Assembly (NCBI RefSeq): GCF_009909615.1
Contig: NZ_WWNE01000004.1
Span: 62,001 to 126,000 of the forward strand
Direction of reading: 5' to 3'
Origin: Acidiluteibacter ferrifornacis
GTDB taxonomy: Bacteria > Bacteroidota > Bacteroidia > Flavobacteriales_E > Vicingaceae
DNA length: 64,000 nt
Shown here: positions 38,323-46,864 of the stretch, piece by piece
How the letters are laid out: each line of letters begins with the position of its first letter
How positions within the stretch are numbered: the stretch's first letter is position 1
The notes under the pieces: model-generated
What the model was told of the DNA's origin: nothing
Database searches by the model: none
The model's input: the letters and a program-made list of their open reading frames with translations, nothing else
Made by a program: the position numbers and the translations under genes

Positions 38323-39330
38323 TTATTCAACTAAAAGATTACAACCTCTAATATCGCTAAGGTCAAATCTGCCTAATATTTCGAATTGTCCATTTTCATG
38401 GGACTTGCCTAGGTCTTGTGTTTCAATAAATGAACAGGAATGTATATTGGCCAAATCAATCACATTTACACCACCAGTTTTCCCAAATTTTTCTGTACTA
38501 AACGGGTCATTGTGACTTCTAATTATAATTTTCATCCAAGGTGGAGTGTTAAACTTTTCGTCGCTAATGGAATAGGCTTGAGATAACAACTCCGTCATAC
38601 CATACTCTGAGTGAATGTTTTTGCAGTTTAGCTGCTGCATCAAAATAGCGTGTAACTCTGAACGAATCATTTCTTTTTTTCTTCCCTTCATTCCACCTGT
38701 TTCTATAATCGTGATTGCTGAAAAATCAAAATGGAATTGCTCTGCTAAATCCAATAAAGCAAATGAAACTCCGAAGAGGATTACTTTTTCTCCCTTAGAA
38801 ATAGATTGCTTGATGTTATTAATCATTTCTAAATGGTTGTGCAGATAAAAGCCACTTGAAGGGTTTCCGTTTTGAATCAAGTGATTCACCATGTAAATTA
38901 ATGAGGAGCCTTCGCGTTCTAGGTATGAAGGCAATAAAGCGAAATAAGTGTATTGATTGATAGGGCCATAAAACATCTCAAATGCTGTCTGAAAACTTCG
39001 TTCATAAATAGCTAAGTCGTTCACAAAATGCTTTGAGGTTTGACTTCCGCTTGTTCCACTACTGGTGAATGTGGATTGACAATCGGTGGAATCTGAAATG
39101 CGGTGAGTTTTAAAAAACGAGATGGGTAAGAACGGTATCGAATCGATTGATTGGACATTGGTTGGGTTTTTATTCAATAAATTACAATATGCTTTATAGA
39201 TATCAACGTTTTCATATTGATGGGTAAATACTTTTAAAGCAACTTCCTCGAAGGAGTTAGAAGTGACATTGAATATATCTTCGATTAGCTTTCTCAACCT
39301 TATGGTGTTTTCAAAATAGAAAATTACCAA
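38323..39330 (-). CDS. LuxE/PaaK-family acyl-protein/acyl-CoA synthetase-like protein
   Basis: Up to 335 residues. The pattern FTSSGTSGSQTS is the AMP/phosphate-binding loop, HSEYGMTELLSQAY the second adenylation motif, and ETQDLGK and ILGRFDLSDIRG are late motifs of the LuxE acyl-protein synthetase domain. In luciferase operons LuxE activates fatty acids as acyl-AMP and then an enzyme-bound thioester; homologues in Bacteroidota have no proven role. There is no ATG near the start: TTG at 39330 follows a stop closely, and TTG at 39297 (before RKLIEDIF) is an equally good start by family length. Confidence 0.78.
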   Translation of the reverse strand: MVIFYFENTIRLRKLIEDIFNVTSNSFEEVALKVFTHQYENVDIYKAYCNLLNKNPTNVQSIDSIPFLPISFFKTHRISDSTDCQSTFTSSGTSGSQTSKHFVNDLAIYERSFQTAFEMFYGPINQYTYFALLPSYLEREGSSLIYMVNHLIQNGNPSSGFYLHNHLEMINNIKQSISKGEKVILFGVSFALLDLAEQFHFDFSAITIIETGGMKGRKKEMIRSELHAILMQQLNCKNIHSEYGMTELLSQAYSISDEKFNTPPWMKIIIRSHNDPFSTEKFGKTGGVNVIDLANIHSCSFIETQDLGKSHENGQFEILGRFDLSDIRGCNLLVE

Positions 39331-39387
39331 TGATTAGCCGCTTAAATCAGTAATTTTAGATTAATTTGGTATTGAAATTTTTAAGTC

Positions 39388-39858
39388 ATGAAGAAAATAG
39401 CTGTAGCTGCTGCTTTATTTGCAGTGCTTTTTGGTTGTAAAGAAGATCCTGACTTCCCAAATGTGCCTCAAATTGAAACTGTTTCCTTTCAAATAATAGA
39501 TGGTGAGGCTTACTGGAAGTTTTCTTTCAAAGATGGGGATGGGAATTTAGGCTCCTCTTTAGAAACAGACACTAATTTCTTCCAATCCATAGTTAATTTA
39601 TCAAAAGATACTACAATAGCCTTTGTTGGAGAAAGAATCCCTGCAATCGAGATTGTTGGAGGGTCAAAAGGAATAGAAGGAGAGATTACAAAGAGCACAA
39701 ACCTAGCCCAATTACAATTAATAGGTACAGGGGGATATACTAAGCAGGACACTGTATACTTTACTACTTACATTGTAGATAATGCGGGAAACAGAAGTAA
39801 TCTCATTCGTACTCCGGCATTTAAAGAGGATCCCATTATAATTTTCTCTAATGAGTAA
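39388..39858 (+). CDS. Small lipoprotein, unknown
   Basis: 156 residues with a lipoprotein signal (LFGC, Cys at about residue 17). The rest is beta-rich with SFKDGDGNLGSS, a Ca-binding-like loop typical of Bacteroidota surface proteins, and a closing strand VDNAGNRSNLIRTPAF. I do not recognise a named family. Convergent with the Na/Pi gene, with the two stops adjacent. It is divergent from the LuxE-like gene. Confidence 0.65.
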   Translation: MKKIAVAAALFAVLFGCKEDPDFPNVPQIETVSFQIIDGEAYWKFSFKDGDGNLGSSLETDTNFFQSIVNLSKDTTIAFVGERIPAIEIVGGSKGIEGEITKSTNLAQLQLIGTGGYTKQDTVYFTTYIVDNAGNRSNLIRTPAFKEDPIIIFSNE

Positions 39859-41559
39859 TTATACTTCTCCTGCAACAGCTTCGCTAACATTGATGATATG
39901 GTCACCTAATCGCTCTACAGAAGAGAATAAATCATTGTAGATAATTCCACTAGCGAAATTGTATTCTCCAGTCTCAATATTGACTAAGTGCTCTTTTCTA
40001 ATCTTGTTTCTCAGTTTATTGATTTCTTTCTCTAATTCATTTGCCTTGGCAAGTTGAACTAGATCATAATCTTGTTCTAAATTTTTTACCATCAAATCAG
40101 AAGCTTGATCAACTTTATCAAACATCTCTTTTAGATTTTGACGCTGCTCTGGTGTAAACCACACTTTTTTGTCAGACTTTCGTTCAATGGCTTTTGACAT
40201 TTGGTAACAAACGTCTCCAATTCGCTCTAAGTCATTAATGATGGATAGCATACTTCTAATTCGCTCAGATGCAGAAGAATTTAATTCGCCTTCAGAAACT
40301 TTGGCCAAATAGTTAGAAACTTCAGATTCTATTCTATCTGTAATTTCCTCATATTTTTTAATCCTAGCCAATAAATGCTTGAATTCCTTTTTGTCTGTTT
40401 CAACCAATAATTTAGGGATAAAACGAATCATTTTTTTAGTCAGCTTACCAAACTTAGCTACTTCTTTTTTTGCTTCTAATATTGCAGCTTCAGTAGTTAA
40501 CATCATACCGGTTCCAATATATTCCAAATGAAACTCTTCATCCATATCGCCTTTTGAGGGAACCATTTTGGTAACAACTCTAGCAATCAGTGGAACAAAT
40601 CCTACCATCAATAAAGTATTGATGATGTTAAATACTGTATGGAAAAGCGATAATTGTAATTCCTCTTGACTGCTTCCTATATCTGGGATAGCCGCAGTTA
40701 AACCATTTTGAAATGGAACCCAAAGCCATTTTACTAAATCAATAAAAAATGAGAACAATAATATCATCCAGATAACCCCAACAACATTGAAGATAAGATG
40801 AGCTCTTGCTGCTCTTTTGGCGTGTACATTTGCTACGATAGCTGCAAGGTTGGCCGTTATCGTAGTTCCAATATTTTCACCTAATACCATTGCTGCTGCT
40901 ACTTCAAATGTGATGACATCAGTATAAAGTAAAGTGAGAGTCAAGGCCATTGCCGCAGAAGAAGACTGAATGATAATGGTTATAATGGTTCCTACCAAAA
41001 CGAATAAAATGGTAGATAAAATTCCGTAATCAGTAAAAGTAGCTAGGAAGCTTAGAACTTCAGGGTTTTGATTGAGATCTGGAACCGAATTTTTTAGTGC
41101 ATCAAGTCCTAGAAATAAAAGGGCAAATCCGATGAGTACTTCAGCAACTGATTTTAGAGTGCTTTTTTTAGCAAACATCATGGGAAAGCCAATCGCAATA
41201 ATCGGCAAGGCAAAAGAGGAAATTTTAATTTTAAAACCAAAAAAAGCAATCAACCAAGCGGTAACAGTGGTACCTATATTGGCTCCCATAATTACTCCAA
41301 TAGACTCAACAAGACTAAGTAATCCTGCGTTGGCAAAACTAACTACCATTACCGTGGTTGCAGAAGATGACTGGATCAATAATGTGATTAAAAAGCCAGT
41401 GAATACACCCAGAAAACGGTTTCTGGTCATACTGCTTAATATTTGGCGGAGTTTATTTCCTGCAGCTTTTTGTATTCCTTCGCTCATGATTTTCATTCCA
41501 AAAATGAAAAAACCCAAAGCTCCTAGCAGATTTAATGATTCTAACAGTCCAAAATCCAT
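39859..41559 (-). CDS. Na/Pi cotransporter with C-terminal PhoU-like domain
   Basis: 566 residues. TM half (residues about 1-310) has the two inverted repeats of the NptA/YjbB Na/Pi family: GFLITLLIQSSSATTVMVVSFANAG and a second QSSSAAMAL copy (SSSA repeats form the substrate site). The cytoplasmic half (about 330-566) is helical with a PhoU-like pattern (KYEEITDRIESEVSNYLAKV and the closing YNDLFSSVERLGDHIINVSEAV). Homologues take up phosphate with Na+; PhoU-like parts sense or regulate. A long 300-base divergent spacer separates it from the receiver-like regulator. Confidence 0.9.
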   Translation of the reverse strand: MDFGLLESLNLLGALGFFIFGMKIMSEGIQKAAGNKLRQILSSMTRNRFLGVFTGFLITLLIQSSSATTVMVVSFANAGLLSLVESIGVIMGANIGTTVTAWLIAFFGFKIKISSFALPIIAIGFPMMFAKKSTLKSVAEVLIGFALLFLGLDALKNSVPDLNQNPEVLSFLATFTDYGILSTILFVLVGTIITIIIQSSSAAMALTLTLLYTDVITFEVAAAMVLGENIGTTITANLAAIVANVHAKRAARAHLIFNVVGVIWMILLFSFFIDLVKWLWVPFQNGLTAAIPDIGSSQEELQLSLFHTVFNIINTLLMVGFVPLIARVVTKMVPSKGDMDEEFHLEYIGTGMMLTTEAAILEAKKEVAKFGKLTKKMIRFIPKLLVETDKKEFKHLLARIKKYEEITDRIESEVSNYLAKVSEGELNSSASERIRSMLSIINDLERIGDVCYQMSKAIERKSDKKVWFTPEQRQNLKEMFDKVDQASDLMVKNLEQDYDLVQLAKANELEKEINKLRNKIRKEHLVNIETGEYNFASGIIYNDLFSSVERLGDHIINVSEAVAGEV

Positions 41560-41576
41560 ATTTGTGTTTTTGTAAT

Positions 41577-41614
41577 GAGCTATTAATTAGTTTTTTAATA
41601 TTAAAAAGTAGCTC
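41577..41614. repeat. Inverted repeat in the leader of the Na/Pi gene
   Basis: TTTTTAATATTAAAAA at 41592-41607 is a perfect 16-base palindrome, and GAGCTA (41577-41582) and TAGCTC (41609-41614) pair outside it, but the centres differ by four bases. A hairpin of this kind lies 18-55 bases upstream of the transporter ATG. Very AT-rich, so chance is not excluded. Confidence 0.4.
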
Positions 41615-41657
41615 TTTTATTCAAACTTCAAAGAGACCACGTTTTTAATCACTGTGT

Positions 41658-41673
41658 GTTAATTTAATGTTAA
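41658..41673. promoter_or_regulatory. GTTAA direct repeat at 11-bp interval
   Basis: GTTAA begins at 41658 and again at 41669. An 11-bp tandem spacing is the usual mode of DNA binding by OmpR/PhoB-type regulators, and one is encoded next door. AT-rich context makes it a candidate only. Confidence 0.3.
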
Positions 41674-41841
41674 GATATAACATAATCCTTAATATTTATC
41701 CAACCGAATTAAAGGACTTCAAATCCTAATTGGAGAATCATTTGGTAGAGTGTTGTGAGTGACTGCTAATGATAACTTTTTATTAATGACACCTTTTAAT
41801 TATAGTAAAACTAAATTAACGTAAAGAGTAGGATTAAAATA

Positions 41842-41850
41842 TAGGTTTGT
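41842..41850 (+). promoter_or_regulatory. -7 box before the OmpR-like regulator
   Basis: TAGGTTTGT matches TAnnTTTG plus pyrimidine. The last G is at 41849 and the ATG at 41860, so the leader is short (about 5-7 bases). No clear -33. Confidence 0.45.
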
Positions 41851-41859
41851 AATTGTATT

Positions 41860-42552
41860 ATGAGCAAGTCTGAGTCCTCCATATTAATTGTAAAAAGCCC
41901 ATTTCATTCCACCACTTCGATTGAAAAATCTCTGGTAGAAGCTGGATTTGAAGTTACCTTTGTAGAAGATCATGAAGATTTATTGAATCAGGCTGTCGCT
42001 AAACCACCTGATATTATTTTTATCCCAGTAGAGTTGGCTGAAGGAGATGGGATAGAAATGTGTTATGAGATAAAAAATCATCAGGAATTGAGTTCTGTTT
42101 TTGTGGTTTTAATTTCAAAGAAAAAGGAAGATTTTACCCAAATTGCTGGGTTAGATTCTGGGGCAGACGATTTTTTAGTGAGTCCTGTTCAAGCTAGAAT
42201 ATTAGCTTTAAAGTTAAAAGCTTTACTCCGGAGAAAGGGAAATGAAATTGGGCTGCACAACGAAAGGGATGAGTTGAGAACAGAGGACTTTGTTATCGAT
42301 AGAGAGCGATATGTTGTTATTCAGAACGATCGTGAAATCTATTTACCCAAAAAAGAGTTTGAACTACTTTCTTTGTTATCGGCAAAGCCACAGAAAATTT
42401 TTACAAGGCAAGAAATTACGCATTCGGTTTGGGGGATGGGTGCCATTGTTCAAGGTAGAACCATTGATGTTCACATTCGAAAAATTCGAGAAAAAATAGG
42501 AAAGCGATATATCCAAACCATAAAAGGTGTAGGCTATAGATTACATGCTTAA
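41860..42552 (+). CDS. OmpR/PhoB-type regulator with non-phosphorylatable receiver
   Basis: 230 residues. A receiver-like domain (1-120) is followed by a canonical winged helix (about 135-229: LPKKEFELLSLLS, then RTIDVHIRKIREKIG, then IKGVGYRL). Aligned with PhoB, the catalytic acidic pair is Lys12-Ser13 (ILIVKSP), the phosphorylated Asp is Pro56 (IIFIPVELAEGDG) and the Lys of the KPF loop is Ser108 (FLVSPV). Only the Thr/Ser (Ser86) remains. So it cannot be phosphorylated by the normal route, while the DNA-binding half looks intact. Divergent from the Na/Pi transporter; no sensor kinase adjoins it. Confidence 0.9.
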   Translation: MSKSESSILIVKSPFHSTTSIEKSLVEAGFEVTFVEDHEDLLNQAVAKPPDIIFIPVELAEGDGIEMCYEIKNHQELSSVFVVLISKKKEDFTQIAGLDSGADDFLVSPVQARILALKLKALLRRKGNEIGLHNERDELRTEDFVIDRERYVVIQNDREIYLPKKEFELLSLLSAKPQKIFTRQEITHSVWGMGAIVQGRTIDVHIRKIREKIGKRYIQTIKGVGYRLHA

Positions 42553-43247
42553 AGTGAAGGGTCTAATGGCCGGAAGGTGATTTCTTCTACAAAAGAGTGC
42601 TTACTTCCAGCGACACTATTTTTAATAAAATCGGCAATGTCATTTGGTTGAACCATACTTTCCCGATTCGCAGAAATACCGTCCCATGAAGGGGTATTCA
42701 CAGAGCCTGGATAGATGGCACAAACTTTAATAGAATAGGGACGAAGCTCTTCTCGTAATAAGTCATTCAAAGCTTTCAATGCATGTTTACTGATCGTATA
42801 GGCTGCAGCGGTAGTTCTTACTTCTTTGGCTAGAACAGATAATATGTTGAAGATGTATCCTTTCTTTTTCTTTTTAAAAGAAGGAATTAGTGCTTGGCTA
42901 ATCTCGAAAGCACTCAAAAAGTTTGCATTAAATAATTCTTGAATGGAGTTGGATGATTCATCTTCTAGATTACCAACACTATATTTTCCAAAATTATTCA
43001 CTAATACATGAATATTTTCTAGATGTGGAGACAGGTTTTTAATCAATTGTGTTCTTGATGCAGAGGATGTTAGATCTCCTGCTATTACATAACATTGATT
43101 TCTATACTTTAATTCAATCTCGTTTTTTAATGTCTCTAGGTTTTCTTTGGAAGAAGAAATTGCAATGATGTCATAGCCCTCTTTAGAGAGTGATTCTACA
43201 ATAGCCTTGCCGATACCTTTTGTTGCTCCAGTAATCAATGCTAACAT
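42549..43247 (-). CDS. Short-chain dehydrogenase/reductase
   Basis: 232 residues: TGATKGIGKAIVE nucleotide loop, LVNNFGKY, and the catalytic YTISKHA, with Ser in the NILSVLAKE strand. Similar to FabG-type 3-oxoacyl reductases and to many SDRs of unknown substrate. Its start is fixed by the Rossmann strand (MLALITGAT). The promoter places its -7 box four bases before the ATG, implying leaderless mRNA. Its stop overlaps the convergent regulator by four bases. Confidence 0.85.
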   Translation of the reverse strand: MLALITGATKGIGKAIVESLSKEGYDIIAISSSKENLETLKNEIELKYRNQCYVIAGDLTSSASRTQLIKNLSPHLENIHVLVNNFGKYSVGNLEDESSNSIQELFNANFLSAFEISQALIPSFKKKKKGYIFNILSVLAKEVRTTAAAYTISKHALKALNDLLREELRPYSIKVCAIYPGSVNTPSWDGISANRESMVQPNDIADFIKNSVAGSKHSFVEEITFRPLDPSL

Positions 43248-43251
43248 CTAG

Positions 43252-43282
43252 CAAAGGTAAATTCTAATTCTTAAATTTGAAA
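43252..43282 (-). promoter_or_regulatory. Promoter of SDR gene at 43247, leaderless type
   Basis: Minus-strand TACCTTTG (43259-43252) matches TAnnTTTG, and TTTC (43282-43279) sits exactly 19 bp upstream, one mismatch from the TTTG -33. The last G is four bases from the ATG. The -33 overlaps the -7 of the divergent gene. Confidence 0.55.
43272..43279 (+). promoter_or_regulatory. -7 box before the glycosyltransferase gene
   Basis: TAAATTTG matches TAnnTTTG. It is 10 bases before the ATG at 43290 and overlaps, at one base, the -33 of the minus-strand SDR promoter, so polymerase binding in the two directions would compete. Confidence 0.45.
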
Positions 43283-43289
43283 CTCGCAC

Positions 43290-44384
43290 ATGAAAGTAGA
43301 TTCTCTTAAGAAACGTATTTTGGTTTGCCCTTTAGATTGGGGCTTGGGTCATGCCTCTCGGTGTATTCCTGTTATTCATGAGTTGGATCGAATGGGATTT
43401 GAAGTCGTTATAGCTGCAGATCGAGCTCCGCTCCAATTACTAAAGAATCAATTTCCCGATAAAGAATTTCTTTCCTATCCAGGTCCTGAAATTAAGTATC
43501 CTAAACGTATCGGGATGGCTTTATTCATGTTACTTAAAGCGCCAAATTTAATTAGATGGTTAAAAGAGGAGCATTTGTTGTTAGAAAGTTTTATCGATAG
43601 TTATCAGATAGATGCTATTATTTCTGACAATAGATACGGTGCCTATTCCGAAAGGATTCCTTCTATTTTGATCACTCATCAGCTCTTTATTCAAGCTCCA
43701 ATGGGCAAGCGTGCTTTGAAGGCTTTCACTGCTGGAAGAGTAAAAAATTTTCAGGAAACTTGGGTACCTGATTTCGATTCTAAAGATAATCTTTCAGGTA
43801 ACTTGTCTCATGGAGATACTGACCTAGAAAATGTACATTATATTCAGCCTATTTCAAGATTCTCTGGATTTGCCACAGCCAATCAAAACTATACGAGAGA
43901 TTTAACTATTGTGTTATCCGGTCCGGAGCCCACTAGAACACAGTTTGAAGAAATTGTTTTAAACCAAATCCAAAATTATGAAGGAAATGTGCTGTTAGTG
44001 AGAGGGCTTCCTGAAACTATAAACCCGTTAAGGCTTCAAGCTAATATCGAAGTAAAATCCTTTTTGCCGGCGAAAGAATTAGAAGTTGAAATGGCCAACT
44101 CGAAGCATATTGTTTGCAGAAGTGGTTACAGTTCCATAATGGATCTAGCCGCCTTAGGTAAGAATGCTATTTTGGTGCCTACCCCAGGTCAGACGGAACA
44201 AGAATACCTTGCTGAAAAGTTAAAATCTGAGAAGAAATATTATTTCGAACATCAACACGAATTTAATTTAATGAGAGCCATAGAGGCTTCTAAAGATTAT
44301 ACTGGAGTAAAATATAAACTAGATAGATCCGACTTAAGAAATAGAATTAAAGCGCTAGCAGATCGGCTTAATCACTCCAAGTAA
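43290..44384 (+). CDS. MurG-like glycosyltransferase (GT28-type C-terminal half)
   Basis: 364 residues. N-terminal glycosyltransferase half starts RILVCPLDWGLGHASRCIPVIHEL, with the Gly-His acceptor loop of GT-B enzymes, and the second half ends with HIVCRSGYSSIMDLAALGKNAILVPTPGQTEQEYLAEKL, the donor-nucleotide-binding signature shared with MurG. True murG is not this gene (it lacks the full MurG N-terminal motif set), so the acceptor is unknown. Its 3' end overlaps the convergent MurF-Alr gene by 13 bases. Confidence 0.8.
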   Translation: MKVDSLKKRILVCPLDWGLGHASRCIPVIHELDRMGFEVVIAADRAPLQLLKNQFPDKEFLSYPGPEIKYPKRIGMALFMLLKAPNLIRWLKEEHLLLESFIDSYQIDAIISDNRYGAYSERIPSILITHQLFIQAPMGKRALKAFTAGRVKNFQETWVPDFDSKDNLSGNLSHGDTDLENVHYIQPISRFSGFATANQNYTRDLTIVLSGPEPTRTQFEEIVLNQIQNYEGNVLLVRGLPETINPLRLQANIEVKSFLPAKELEVEMANSKHIVCRSGYSSIMDLAALGKNAILVPTPGQTEQEYLAEKLKSEKKYYFEHQHEFNLMRAIEASKDYTGVKYKLDRSDLRNRIKALADRLNHSK

Positions 44385-46864
44385 AAAACGCGTTTCAATC
44401 TACTTCCTATATCTGTCAAAACCTCATAGGGTATGGTATTTCTGGCTTTAGCCAAGTCATAAATGGTATTGTTTTCGCCAAAAATGACTACTTCATCGCC
44501 TTCTTCAGCTTCTATACCCGTAATGTCTATCATTAACATGTCCATACAAATTGAGCCTATTGTTGGAGCGAGCTTACCGTTCACTTCTATTTGCCAATTG
44601 CCATTTCCCAACAGTCTACTAAATCCATCTGCATAGCCTATAGGAATGGTGGCTGTTGTTCCATCTGTTGGCATGACTCCTCGTCGTCCGTAGCCCACTG
44701 TCTCTCCTTTCTTTAGGTGTTTAATTTGAGAAATATGTGCTATTAATCTATTGACAGGTTTAAGAATTGCTTTATGTTCTGGAGTGTTGCTAATACCATA
44801 TAACCCAATACCTAATCGAACCATATCAAATTGTTGATCTGGAAATCTTAAAATTCCACTGGAATTGAGGATGTGTTTTAAGAATGAATATCCAAGCGAT
44901 CGCTCTATTTTTGCAGTCATTGTATTGAATCGTTCAAATTGAAGCTGCGTAAAGTCATCCTTCTCTTGTTCATCGCTTGCTGCTAAATGAGAAAATACAG
45001 AGGCTACTTTGACTTGAGGATTTGCTTTTAAAAGTTCAACTAACTCATCTAACTGTTCTTGTTCAAAACCTAATCGACGCATACCTGTATCCATTTTTAA
45101 ATGAATTTTAACTGCTTGGTTCGGATCTTGAAAGTAGGTGTTGCGGTCAAGGTTTTCCAAGAAAAGTCTTAAGTTTCTCAAGCTGTATATTTCTGCTTCA
45201 AGTTGATGTCTGATTAGGCTGTCGAAGCTTTGTGGTTCAGGATTTAAAACCATTATTGGTAAGGCTATTCCTTGATTGCGTAATGCGATCCCTTCATCGG
45301 TATAGGCTACAGCAAGATAGTCAGCACGATAATATTCTAAGATATTTGCGATTTCATGTGTGCCATTTCCATAAGAAAAAGCTTTCACCATTATCATTAG
45401 CTTGGTGTTGCTATTCAGAATAGACTTAAAATAATTGAGATTATCAATTAAGTAATTCAAGTTGACCTCTAGTGTAGAGTTATGTCCTTTCTCTTGTAAT
45501 CTTTCGGTAATTTTTTCAAATTCAAACTTTCGCGCGCCTTTGATCAATATTGCTTCGTTGTAAAATTTGATTTGATCAATAGAATTTAAGAAGCTTATAG
45601 TATCAGGGTAGCACTCCGTCGGAATTTGGAATAAATGTTTCTGCGCTTGGATGTTGGGTCCAATACCAATCAGACGGTCTATTTTGTTTCGATTAAGTAA
45701 GTCTGAGATTTCTGCATATAGCTTTTCTGTTGACTCAGAATGCTGAAGTATATCAGATAGTATAAGGGTGTGTTGTGGATGTTGTTGCTGTTGTTTTAAA
45801 TAGGTGATGGCGATTTTAAGAGAGGTAATATCAGAATTATAACTGTCGTTAATTAACGTACAAGAATGAATGCCTTTTTTTAGTTCCAACCGCATTGCAA
45901 TGGAAGTGAGGGACTTCATTCCTTCTGAGATAATGGCTGTATCTATTGAAAAGGTAAGGCACAATAGCCAAACATGTATTGCGTCCTCCAGCGATGCACT
46001 GTCTTTGAAAGGCAGATTGATCTCTACGTCTTCTCCTTTATAAATTCCTTTGATTAATGATTTTTTATTCGAATGGGTGATGGAAGTTATTTGTAAACTC
46101 ACTGTACTTTTTTCTCTTGACCAAGTGATTAACTCAATAGGTTGGCTAAAAATTGTCTTCGCAATCTGTATATCAATAGCATGATGATCCTTGCAGTAGA
46201 TTAATTGATTACAGTTTTTAAATAATTGAATCTTCTCTATTATCTGCTTCTCTTGCGATTCGAAATTTTGTGCGTGAGCGTTTCCAATATTGGTGAAAAT
46301 ACCAATGTTGGGTTGAATCATCCGCTCTAGACACTCCATCTCATTTGATTGAGATACTCCTGCTTCAAAAATAGCTAAATCATGGCTACTGGTGAGTTGC
46401 CAAACCGACAAAGGAACCCCTACTTGAGAATTATAACTTTTTGGACTTCTACAAATCTGATATACTTCTTTTAAAACTTGAAATGTCCATTCTTTGACAA
46501 TTGTCTTGCCATTACTTCCTGTAATTCCGATTACTGGAAGCTTGAATTGACTTCTGTGAAAACTTGCAATTTGATGAAGAGCTTTCAATGTGTCAGGTAC
46601 AACAATAAAATTAGCGTCTTCGTATTGATCGGATATAATCTGAGATCTAGAAATCAAAAATGAACGAACTCCCTTTTGGTAAGCTTCCTCAATGTATTGA
46701 TGTCCGTCTTGTCGTTGACCAATTAAAGCAACAAACATGGAGTCGGAATACTCTTGTTGCGCACGGCTATCAATTAGTATATGAGTTACTACTGTAGTGA
46801 CTCCTTCGTGAGTGCCCTTACAAATATTACTCAATTCTATACTACTGTAACCTTTGGGTTTCAT
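44372..46864 (-). CDS. Bifunctional MurF ligase and alanine racemase
   Basis: 830 residues. Residues 1-450 are MurF (adds D-Ala-D-Ala to UDP-MurNAc-tripeptide): P-loop GSNGKT at 116-121, SYNSQVGVPLSVWQL and NDSYNSD. Residues about 460-830 are alanine racemase: PLP-binding Lys494 in MVKAFSYGNG, VRLGIGLYGI, and the GYADG loop late in the chain. Both halves retain their active-site motifs. Fusing D-Ala supply to its ligation is known in Bacteroidota. Reads away from thymidine kinase with a 12-base gap. Confidence 0.94.
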   Translation of the reverse strand: MKPKGYSSIELSNICKGTHEGVTTVVTHILIDSRAQQEYSDSMFVALIGQRQDGHQYIEEAYQKGVRSFLISRSQIISDQYEDANFIVVPDTLKALHQIASFHRSQFKLPVIGITGSNGKTIVKEWTFQVLKEVYQICRSPKSYNSQVGVPLSVWQLTSSHDLAIFEAGVSQSNEMECLERMIQPNIGIFTNIGNAHAQNFESQEKQIIEKIQLFKNCNQLIYCKDHHAIDIQIAKTIFSQPIELITWSREKSTVSLQITSITHSNKKSLIKGIYKGEDVEINLPFKDSASLEDAIHVWLLCLTFSIDTAIISEGMKSLTSIAMRLELKKGIHSCTLINDSYNSDITSLKIAITYLKQQQQHPQHTLILSDILQHSESTEKLYAEISDLLNRNKIDRLIGIGPNIQAQKHLFQIPTECYPDTISFLNSIDQIKFYNEAILIKGARKFEFEKITERLQEKGHNSTLEVNLNYLIDNLNYFKSILNSNTKLMIMVKAFSYGNGTHEIANILEYYRADYLAVAYTDEGIALRNQGIALPIMVLNPEPQSFDSLIRHQLEAEIYSLRNLRLFLENLDRNTYFQDPNQAVKIHLKMDTGMRRLGFEQEQLDELVELLKANPQVKVASVFSHLAASDEQEKDDFTQLQFERFNTMTAKIERSLGYSFLKHILNSSGILRFPDQQFDMVRLGIGLYGISNTPEHKAILKPVNRLIAHISQIKHLKKGETVGYGRRGVMPTDGTTATIPIGYADGFSRLLGNGNWQIEVNGKLAPTIGSICMDMLMIDITGIEAEEGDEVVIFGENNTIYDLAKARNTIPYEVLTDIGSRLKRVFYLE

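Follow-up and report, generated by a model that had tools for sequence, protein, structure and literature searches.

A degenerate PhoB paralogue beside a phosphate cotransporter gene in Acidiluteibacter ferrifornacis: a possible decoy in the phosphate response

Pseudo-receiver regulators are already known and common. Among OmpR-type regulators, 2% are reported to have no phospho-acceptor aspartate, and receivers without it mostly retain a basic residue at the position of the conserved lysine (70%) and the first acid of the acidic pair (65%) (PMC4395418); the control of such regulators was called a mystery in a 2025 review (PMC12632262). For E. coli PhoB, residues W184, G185, V190 and D192 have been assigned a role in the loop contacting RNA polymerase (sigma) (PMC1885438), and the choice of partner by PhoB is changed by mutations in alpha1 (PMC2991266). 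The PHO box consists of two 7-nt units, arranged as direct repeats with an 11-nt period (PMC4415409), and the -7 box of Bacteroidota promoters has the consensus TAnnTTTG (PMC9723704).

The window, the whole stretch of 64,000 nucleotides analysed here, contains a gene for a regulator of this kind. The features of the gene and of its product are the following, in window coordinates:

41860..42552, + strand: degenerate PhoB paralogue, an intact ORF of 230 aa with a receiver and a winged-helix DNA-binding domain (AlphaFold2, Pfam)
41893..41898, + strand: Lys12-Ser13, replacing the Mg-binding acidic pair (PhoB E9-D10; alignment)
42025..42027, + strand: Pro56, replacing the phospho-acceptor Asp (PhoB D53), lost in 9 of 9 class A orthologues
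42181..42183, + strand: Ser108, replacing the conserved Lys (PhoB K105), lost in 9 of 9 class A orthologues
42433..42456, + strand: RNA-polymerase (sigma) contact loop, G192-G199, reading GMGAIVQG where canonical copies have G[GN][ED][VI][VI]VGD
42454..42498, + strand: predicted DNA-recognition helix, residues 199-213, GRTIDVHIRKIREKI (AlphaFold2 helix and alignment)

The protein has the architecture of the OmpR/PhoB type, a receiver followed by a Trans_reg_C winged helix, both above the Pfam cut-offs: Response_reg scores 52.3 bits (cut-off 30.2) and Trans_reg_C 78.4 bits (cut-off 26.2). The initial annotation had described it as a regulator with a receiver deprived of its phosphorylation residues and without a kinase beside it; both statements are confirmed, and alignment with E. 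coli PhoB shows its residue numbering to be exact. PhoB residues E9, D10, D53, T83, A84, Y102, K105 and P106 correspond to Lys12, Ser13, Pro56, Ser86, Lys87, Phe105, Ser108 and Pro109. Four of the five canonical active-site residues of the PF00072 receiver are replaced, so that the former statement that only Ser86 remains is correct for these five; the switch aromatic Phe105 and Pro109 are, however, likewise kept. At the T+1 position the regulator has Lys87, where canonical copies have Ala. Judged from this alignment, the protein lacks the residues for the usual aspartate phosphorylation. AlphaFold2 predicts both the receiver and the effector folds confidently (mean pLDDT 90.5), the receiver fold being intact, while how the domains lie relative to each other is predicted with little certainty (pTM 0.58). 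Because of this uncertainty full-length Foldseek superpositions are poor (TM about 0.5), and only the individual folds are informative; HP1043, RitR and GlnR are among the matches. An Rfam scan of positions 39000-44500 gave no match.

Relatives were sought in 46 genomes of the family and in a named genome collection, and the degenerate ones fall into two kinds. Class A, to which the regulator belongs, is found in nine genomes from five genera. Its members are syntenic, with a gene order which is constant wherever the contig reaches far enough: LuxE-like gene, small lipoprotein, Na/Pi cotransporter-PhoU (divergent), regulator, short-chain dehydrogenase, glycosyltransferase. The phospho-acceptor position is occupied by Pro in seven members, Ala in one and Ser in one, and that of the conserved lysine by Ser (three), Gln (three), His (two) or Glu (one), never by the canonical residue. 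The loss is therefore no oddity of a single gene: the alignment of homologues proposed in the initial annotation shows it fixed in all nine orthologues for Asp and Lys, while the replacing residues vary and four of the nine retain Asp as the first acid. Since the acids are partly kept, both of them in one member, the phospho-acceptor and the lysine were probably lost first.

Class B is found in at least 20 other genomes, where the commonest order is cotransporter, two small genes, regulator and, about 5 kb further, canonical PhoB-PhoR. The small genes (e.g. L083, 3653-4523), both conserved, encode a protein with a carboxypeptidase-regulatory-like domain and a MORN-repeat protein. In class B the lesion is of another type: both acids are lost in 22 of 22 sequences, the first one being replaced by Ser in 16, whereas Asp/Glu is kept at position 53 and Lys is mostly kept. 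No genome with both classes was seen among those surveyed. In the comparison of the regulator with its orthologue from genome G001, dN/dS is about 0.15, with dS near saturation. A recently pseudogenised copy, named in the initial annotation as the finding that would speak against it, is ruled out by the intact ORF, its conservation and the low dN/dS.

Five proteins of the source genome contain a Trans_reg_C domain. The closest paralogue of the regulator (43% identity) is the gene at C16, whose phosphorylation site is complete (D, D, D, T, K). The next gene encodes a HisKA/HATPase kinase, and genes for a TonB receptor and for a lipoprotein, interpreted as a beta-helix protein, are transcribed divergently. 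Neighbours of the same kind are found at the phoBR locus of F. johnsoniae, where Fjoh_0545 (TonB type) and Fjoh_0546 (lipoprotein FII) are strongly induced by phosphate depletion (PMC8115612). Because of its full site, its adjoining kinase and these neighbours, the C16 gene is very probably the functional PhoB of the genome, and the regulator is its phosphate-side relative. The regulator itself is not a PhoB orthologue, as it has neither a phosphorylatable receiver (K12, S13, P56, S108) nor an adjoining PhoR, and it falls short of the PhoB equivalog models of NCBIfam (142.5 versus 296.2 bits for TIGR02154, 136.1 versus 270 for NF053854). Another protein of the same genome, of 280 aa (L003, 892-1734, contig C14), has an unusual layout for an OmpR-type regulator, being membrane-anchored: its Trans_reg_C domain is C-terminal, and the rest comprises an apparent signal peptide, a periplasmic part and a single membrane segment. 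In several class A genomes PhoB-PhoR is followed by genes for an ECF-type sigma factor and for a protein bearing a type IX secretion signal (L070, 6572-8249), which may belong to the phosphate locus.

Class A groups with 21 of the 22 class B sequences in a single clade, separate from canonical PhoB (SH-aLRT 96), in a tree to be read with caution for its long branches and for one sequence, L085, left unplaced. A tree of the DNA-binding domain by itself recovers this clade (94), which gives no support to a common origin simulated by receiver decay. L085 (4592-5284, genome G040) is a very divergent second regulator beside canonical PhoB, with L and K in place of the acids, Asp and Lys kept, and firm grouping with neither class. 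The simplest reading is one old duplication of PhoB, after which the phosphorylation site was taken apart in two ways.

Retention and loss were compared at the 102 sites where canonical copies are fixed to 90% or more, within five functional regions whose boundaries the author drew after E. coli PhoB. Over all 102 sites, retention is 0.60 in class A and 0.58 in class B. In the phosphorylation pocket it drops to 0.08 and 0.25, values which are partly circular, as the classes are defined by the pocket; the other regions are free of this circularity. Retention is 0.20 and 0.15 for the alpha1 face, 0.19 and 0.03 for the RNA-polymerase loop, 0.77 and 0.87 for the dimer face (alpha4-beta5-alpha5), 0.93 and 0.90 for the DNA recognition helix and wing, where the regulator itself keeps 17 sites out of 17. 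The loss is selective (permutation P from 0.04 to below 0.0001): pocket, alpha1 kinase-docking face and RNA-polymerase loop are lost, DNA-reading residues and most of the dimer face kept. The core of the recognition helix, R.IDVHIRK.REK, is essentially invariant across class A, class B and canonical copies. The canonical loop, mostly WG[GN][ED][VI][VI]VGDRTID, is scrambled in class B and rewritten in class A, where it is partly conserved in a new form (W[DET]NFE[KQ]VRGRTVD in four of the nine); in the regulator, Gly199 stands in place of PhoB D192. The DNA-binding half, called canonical in the initial annotation, is so in its DNA-contacting parts, but not in this loop.

The neighbourhood of the gene includes a phosphate transporter, and promoter elements are found on both sides of the intergenic region:

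39859..41559, - strand: Na/Pi cotransporter with C-terminal PhoU domains (Pfam Na_Pi_cotrans and PhoU), divergent from the regulator
41629..41636, - strand: -7-like box TCTCTTTG of the cotransporter promoter, 20 bp past its PHO-box-like repeat, identical in both congeners
41657..41674, - strand: PHO-box-like repeat CTTAACATTAAATTAACA of the cotransporter promoter, a strong box
41804..41821, + strand: PHO-box-like 11-bp direct repeat of the regulator promoter, with the 3' half-site intact and the 5' one weak
41842..41849, + strand: -7 box TAGGTTTG (TAnnTTTG) of the regulator promoter, exactly 20 bp past its PHO-box-like repeat

The cotransporter is the only PhoU-bearing protein found by a search of the whole source genome. 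PstB is missing from this genome as from every one of the nine class A genomes; within the family, 9 of the 46 genomes have it. Other limits on the Pho response would be plausible where no PstSCAB-PhoU complex signals to PhoR. Further along the window, positions 44372-46864 (- strand) hold an ORF of 830 aa which looks like a MurF-alanine racemase fusion; its syntenic homologue at L041 has only 401 aa, so that L041 may lack the fusion or have it in separate pieces.

Each of the two genes is faced by one of the intergenic direct repeats, which are 18 nt long, follow the form CTTAAC-N5-CTTAACA and match the PHO box in size and period as defined in PMC4415409. Box, exactly 20 bp and -7 box precede both divergent genes in all nine class A loci, and no other spacing fits. 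On the regulator side the layout was found in nine loci out of nine, placing a box at the promoter position expected for the Pho regulon. On the cotransporter side a local scan found it in eight, with TCTCTTTG in three congeners; the ninth, L058, was recovered by the genome-wide match, having been missed because its called start lies too far upstream. The called starts of both regulator and cotransporter are too far upstream in L040, L041 and L058, for example where the ATG of the -7 box TATGTTTG is taken as start. Boxes of this type are also carried by class B regulators and cotransporters. With the strict pattern, the genome-wide search gives 94 matches in the 46 family genomes, as against 30 for the reversed control (author's tally). 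Each of the nine class A genomes has 1-3 matches: 11 of these 19 lie in the cotransporter-regulator intergenic region and 3 at canonical phoB. The box alone is not enriched in the source genome (8 matches versus 11 for the reversed control), and within the 64-kb window 3 matches compare with 2.5 expected by chance; the case for the promoters is therefore comparative. Neighbour and promoters, as read from these sequences, appear to tie the regulator to phosphate uptake.

This tie, the ancient paralogy with PhoB, the cognate PhoB-PhoR still present in the genome and the loss of RNA-polymerase loop and kinase-docking helix along with the phosphorylation site had all escaped the initial annotation. 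Its conclusion, a control other than the protein's own phosphorylation, is well supported, although its interpretation as a whole is only partly so: among the three modes it suggested, concentration, set through the PHO-box promoter of the gene, fits best, while nothing found points to ligand binding.

The regulator is probably a built-in brake, or else an always-on companion, of the phosphate response. That this old PhoB duplicate has turned into a decoy, dampening the phosphate regulon, is favoured tentatively, at somewhat less than an even chance. When phosphate is short, PhoB phosphorylated by PhoR would turn on the genes for cotransporter and decoy; the decoy would build up, dimerise with itself or with PhoB, and sit on the same PHO boxes without recruiting RNA polymerase as PhoB does. 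Expression of the cotransporter, of the decoy itself and probably of other Pho genes would be capped, the net effect being a delayed negative feedback set by the amount of protein, not by phosphorylation. The decoy fits because DNA reading and pairing are kept, kinase input and polymerase output are lost, and the promoter is of the PhoB type. Box binding, dimerisation and negative effect we infer, from losses, retention, promoter architecture and ancestry seen in the sequences. Also counted in favour of a decoy are the nine orthologues in five genera, the canonical PhoB-PhoR in the genome and the two routes of loss. On the other side, the class A loop is rewritten, not simply decayed, and may contact something else and activate; the equivalents of G185 and, in two members out of three, V190 are partly kept in the loop within the source genus; the 5' half-site of the regulator's own box is weak; and the box by itself is not enriched in the source genome. 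The complete picture, a two-component system with a self-evolved antagonist, in which a PhoB duplicate became a dominant-negative, self-limiting brake in two lineages by two chemical routes, is offered as a conjecture. Most members of the family in which this antagonist would act are without the Pst transporter.

As the main rival we consider an activator of the ChxR/HP1043 type, constitutive and independent of phosphorylation, which would dimerise unphosphorylated and drive the cotransporter and itself; PhoBR or positive autoregulation would set its amount, making it a feed-forward amplifier like the one suggested for CmrT of CmrRST (PMC12632262). Dimer face and DNA recognition are kept, the Y-T coupling residues are present in 9 of 9 class A and 22 of 22 class B sequences, the box lies at a promoter-proximal activator position, 20 bp before the -7 box, the class A loop is conserved in its new form, and precedents are known (PMC12632262, PMC3960148); yet the canonical signature of the RNA-polymerase loop is lost in both lineages, almost completely in class B, and such an activator is considered rather unlikely. 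The retained dimer face would also suit an obligate heterodimer partner or coincidence detector in the style of WhiI-BldM, acting with phosphorylated PhoB, or gated by the PhoU tail of the cotransporter, and tuning a subset of promoters. The canonical PhoB of the genome, the linkage to its only PhoU-domain protein and, in class B, PhoB-PhoR about 5 kb away are compatible with it, but the near-fixed Lys of class B at PhoB position 96, where canonical copies have Asp/Glu, could alter pairing: the chances of this arrangement are judged low. The faster evolution of the receiver, with a mean identity within class A of 0.42 versus 0.66 for the DNA-binding domain (0.68 and 0.68 in canonical copies), might suggest a functionless, decaying duplicate. 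Intactness in nine genomes of five genera, conserved promoter and DNA-contact residues, low dN/dS and a confident fold already contradict it, and make it most improbable.

No PhoB paralogue described as competing with PhoB was found in a literature search of incomplete coverage. As far as the literature searched shows, the new elements are a pair of lineages derived from PhoB, each damaged in its own way, the preservation of a PHO-box circuit and the selective loss of the polymerase loop. As parent protein, kinase, DNA box, likely target and two differently broken lineages are visible in many genomes, the question of control becomes directly testable; the findings also suggest a way in which the phosphate response may be limited in bacteria that have no PstSCAB-PhoU.

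Among described systems, WhiI-BldM of Streptomyces illustrates how a pseudo-receiver can work as part of a heterodimer (PMC12632262), but governs sporulation, not phosphate. CmrT of C. difficile CmrRST is likewise a pseudo-receiver wired to an otherwise normal two-component system, and its control may lie in the level at which it is expressed (PMC12632262); it shares one operon with kinase and partner, whereas the PhoB-PhoR of class A is at another locus. ChxR, HP1043, NblR, RitR and GlnR, aspartate-less members of the OmpR/PhoB type, resemble the regulator in having a receiver fold without the full phosphorylation chemistry, an orphan gene and an intact DNA-binding half. The regulator differs in being recent enough for its PhoB origin to be visible, in being kept beside a phosphate transporter and, unlike most aspartate-less receivers (PMC4395418), in keeping neither a basic residue at the Lys position nor the first acid. 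The closest likeness is to PhoB of PhoBR, of the Bacteroidota type (e.g. F. johnsoniae Fjoh_0544), in domains, DNA-recognition residues, PHO-box-type repeats and ancestry; with respect to it, the regulator is without phospho-acceptor Asp, Lys, acidic pair and adjoining kinase, and is altered in alpha1 and in the RNA-polymerase loop.
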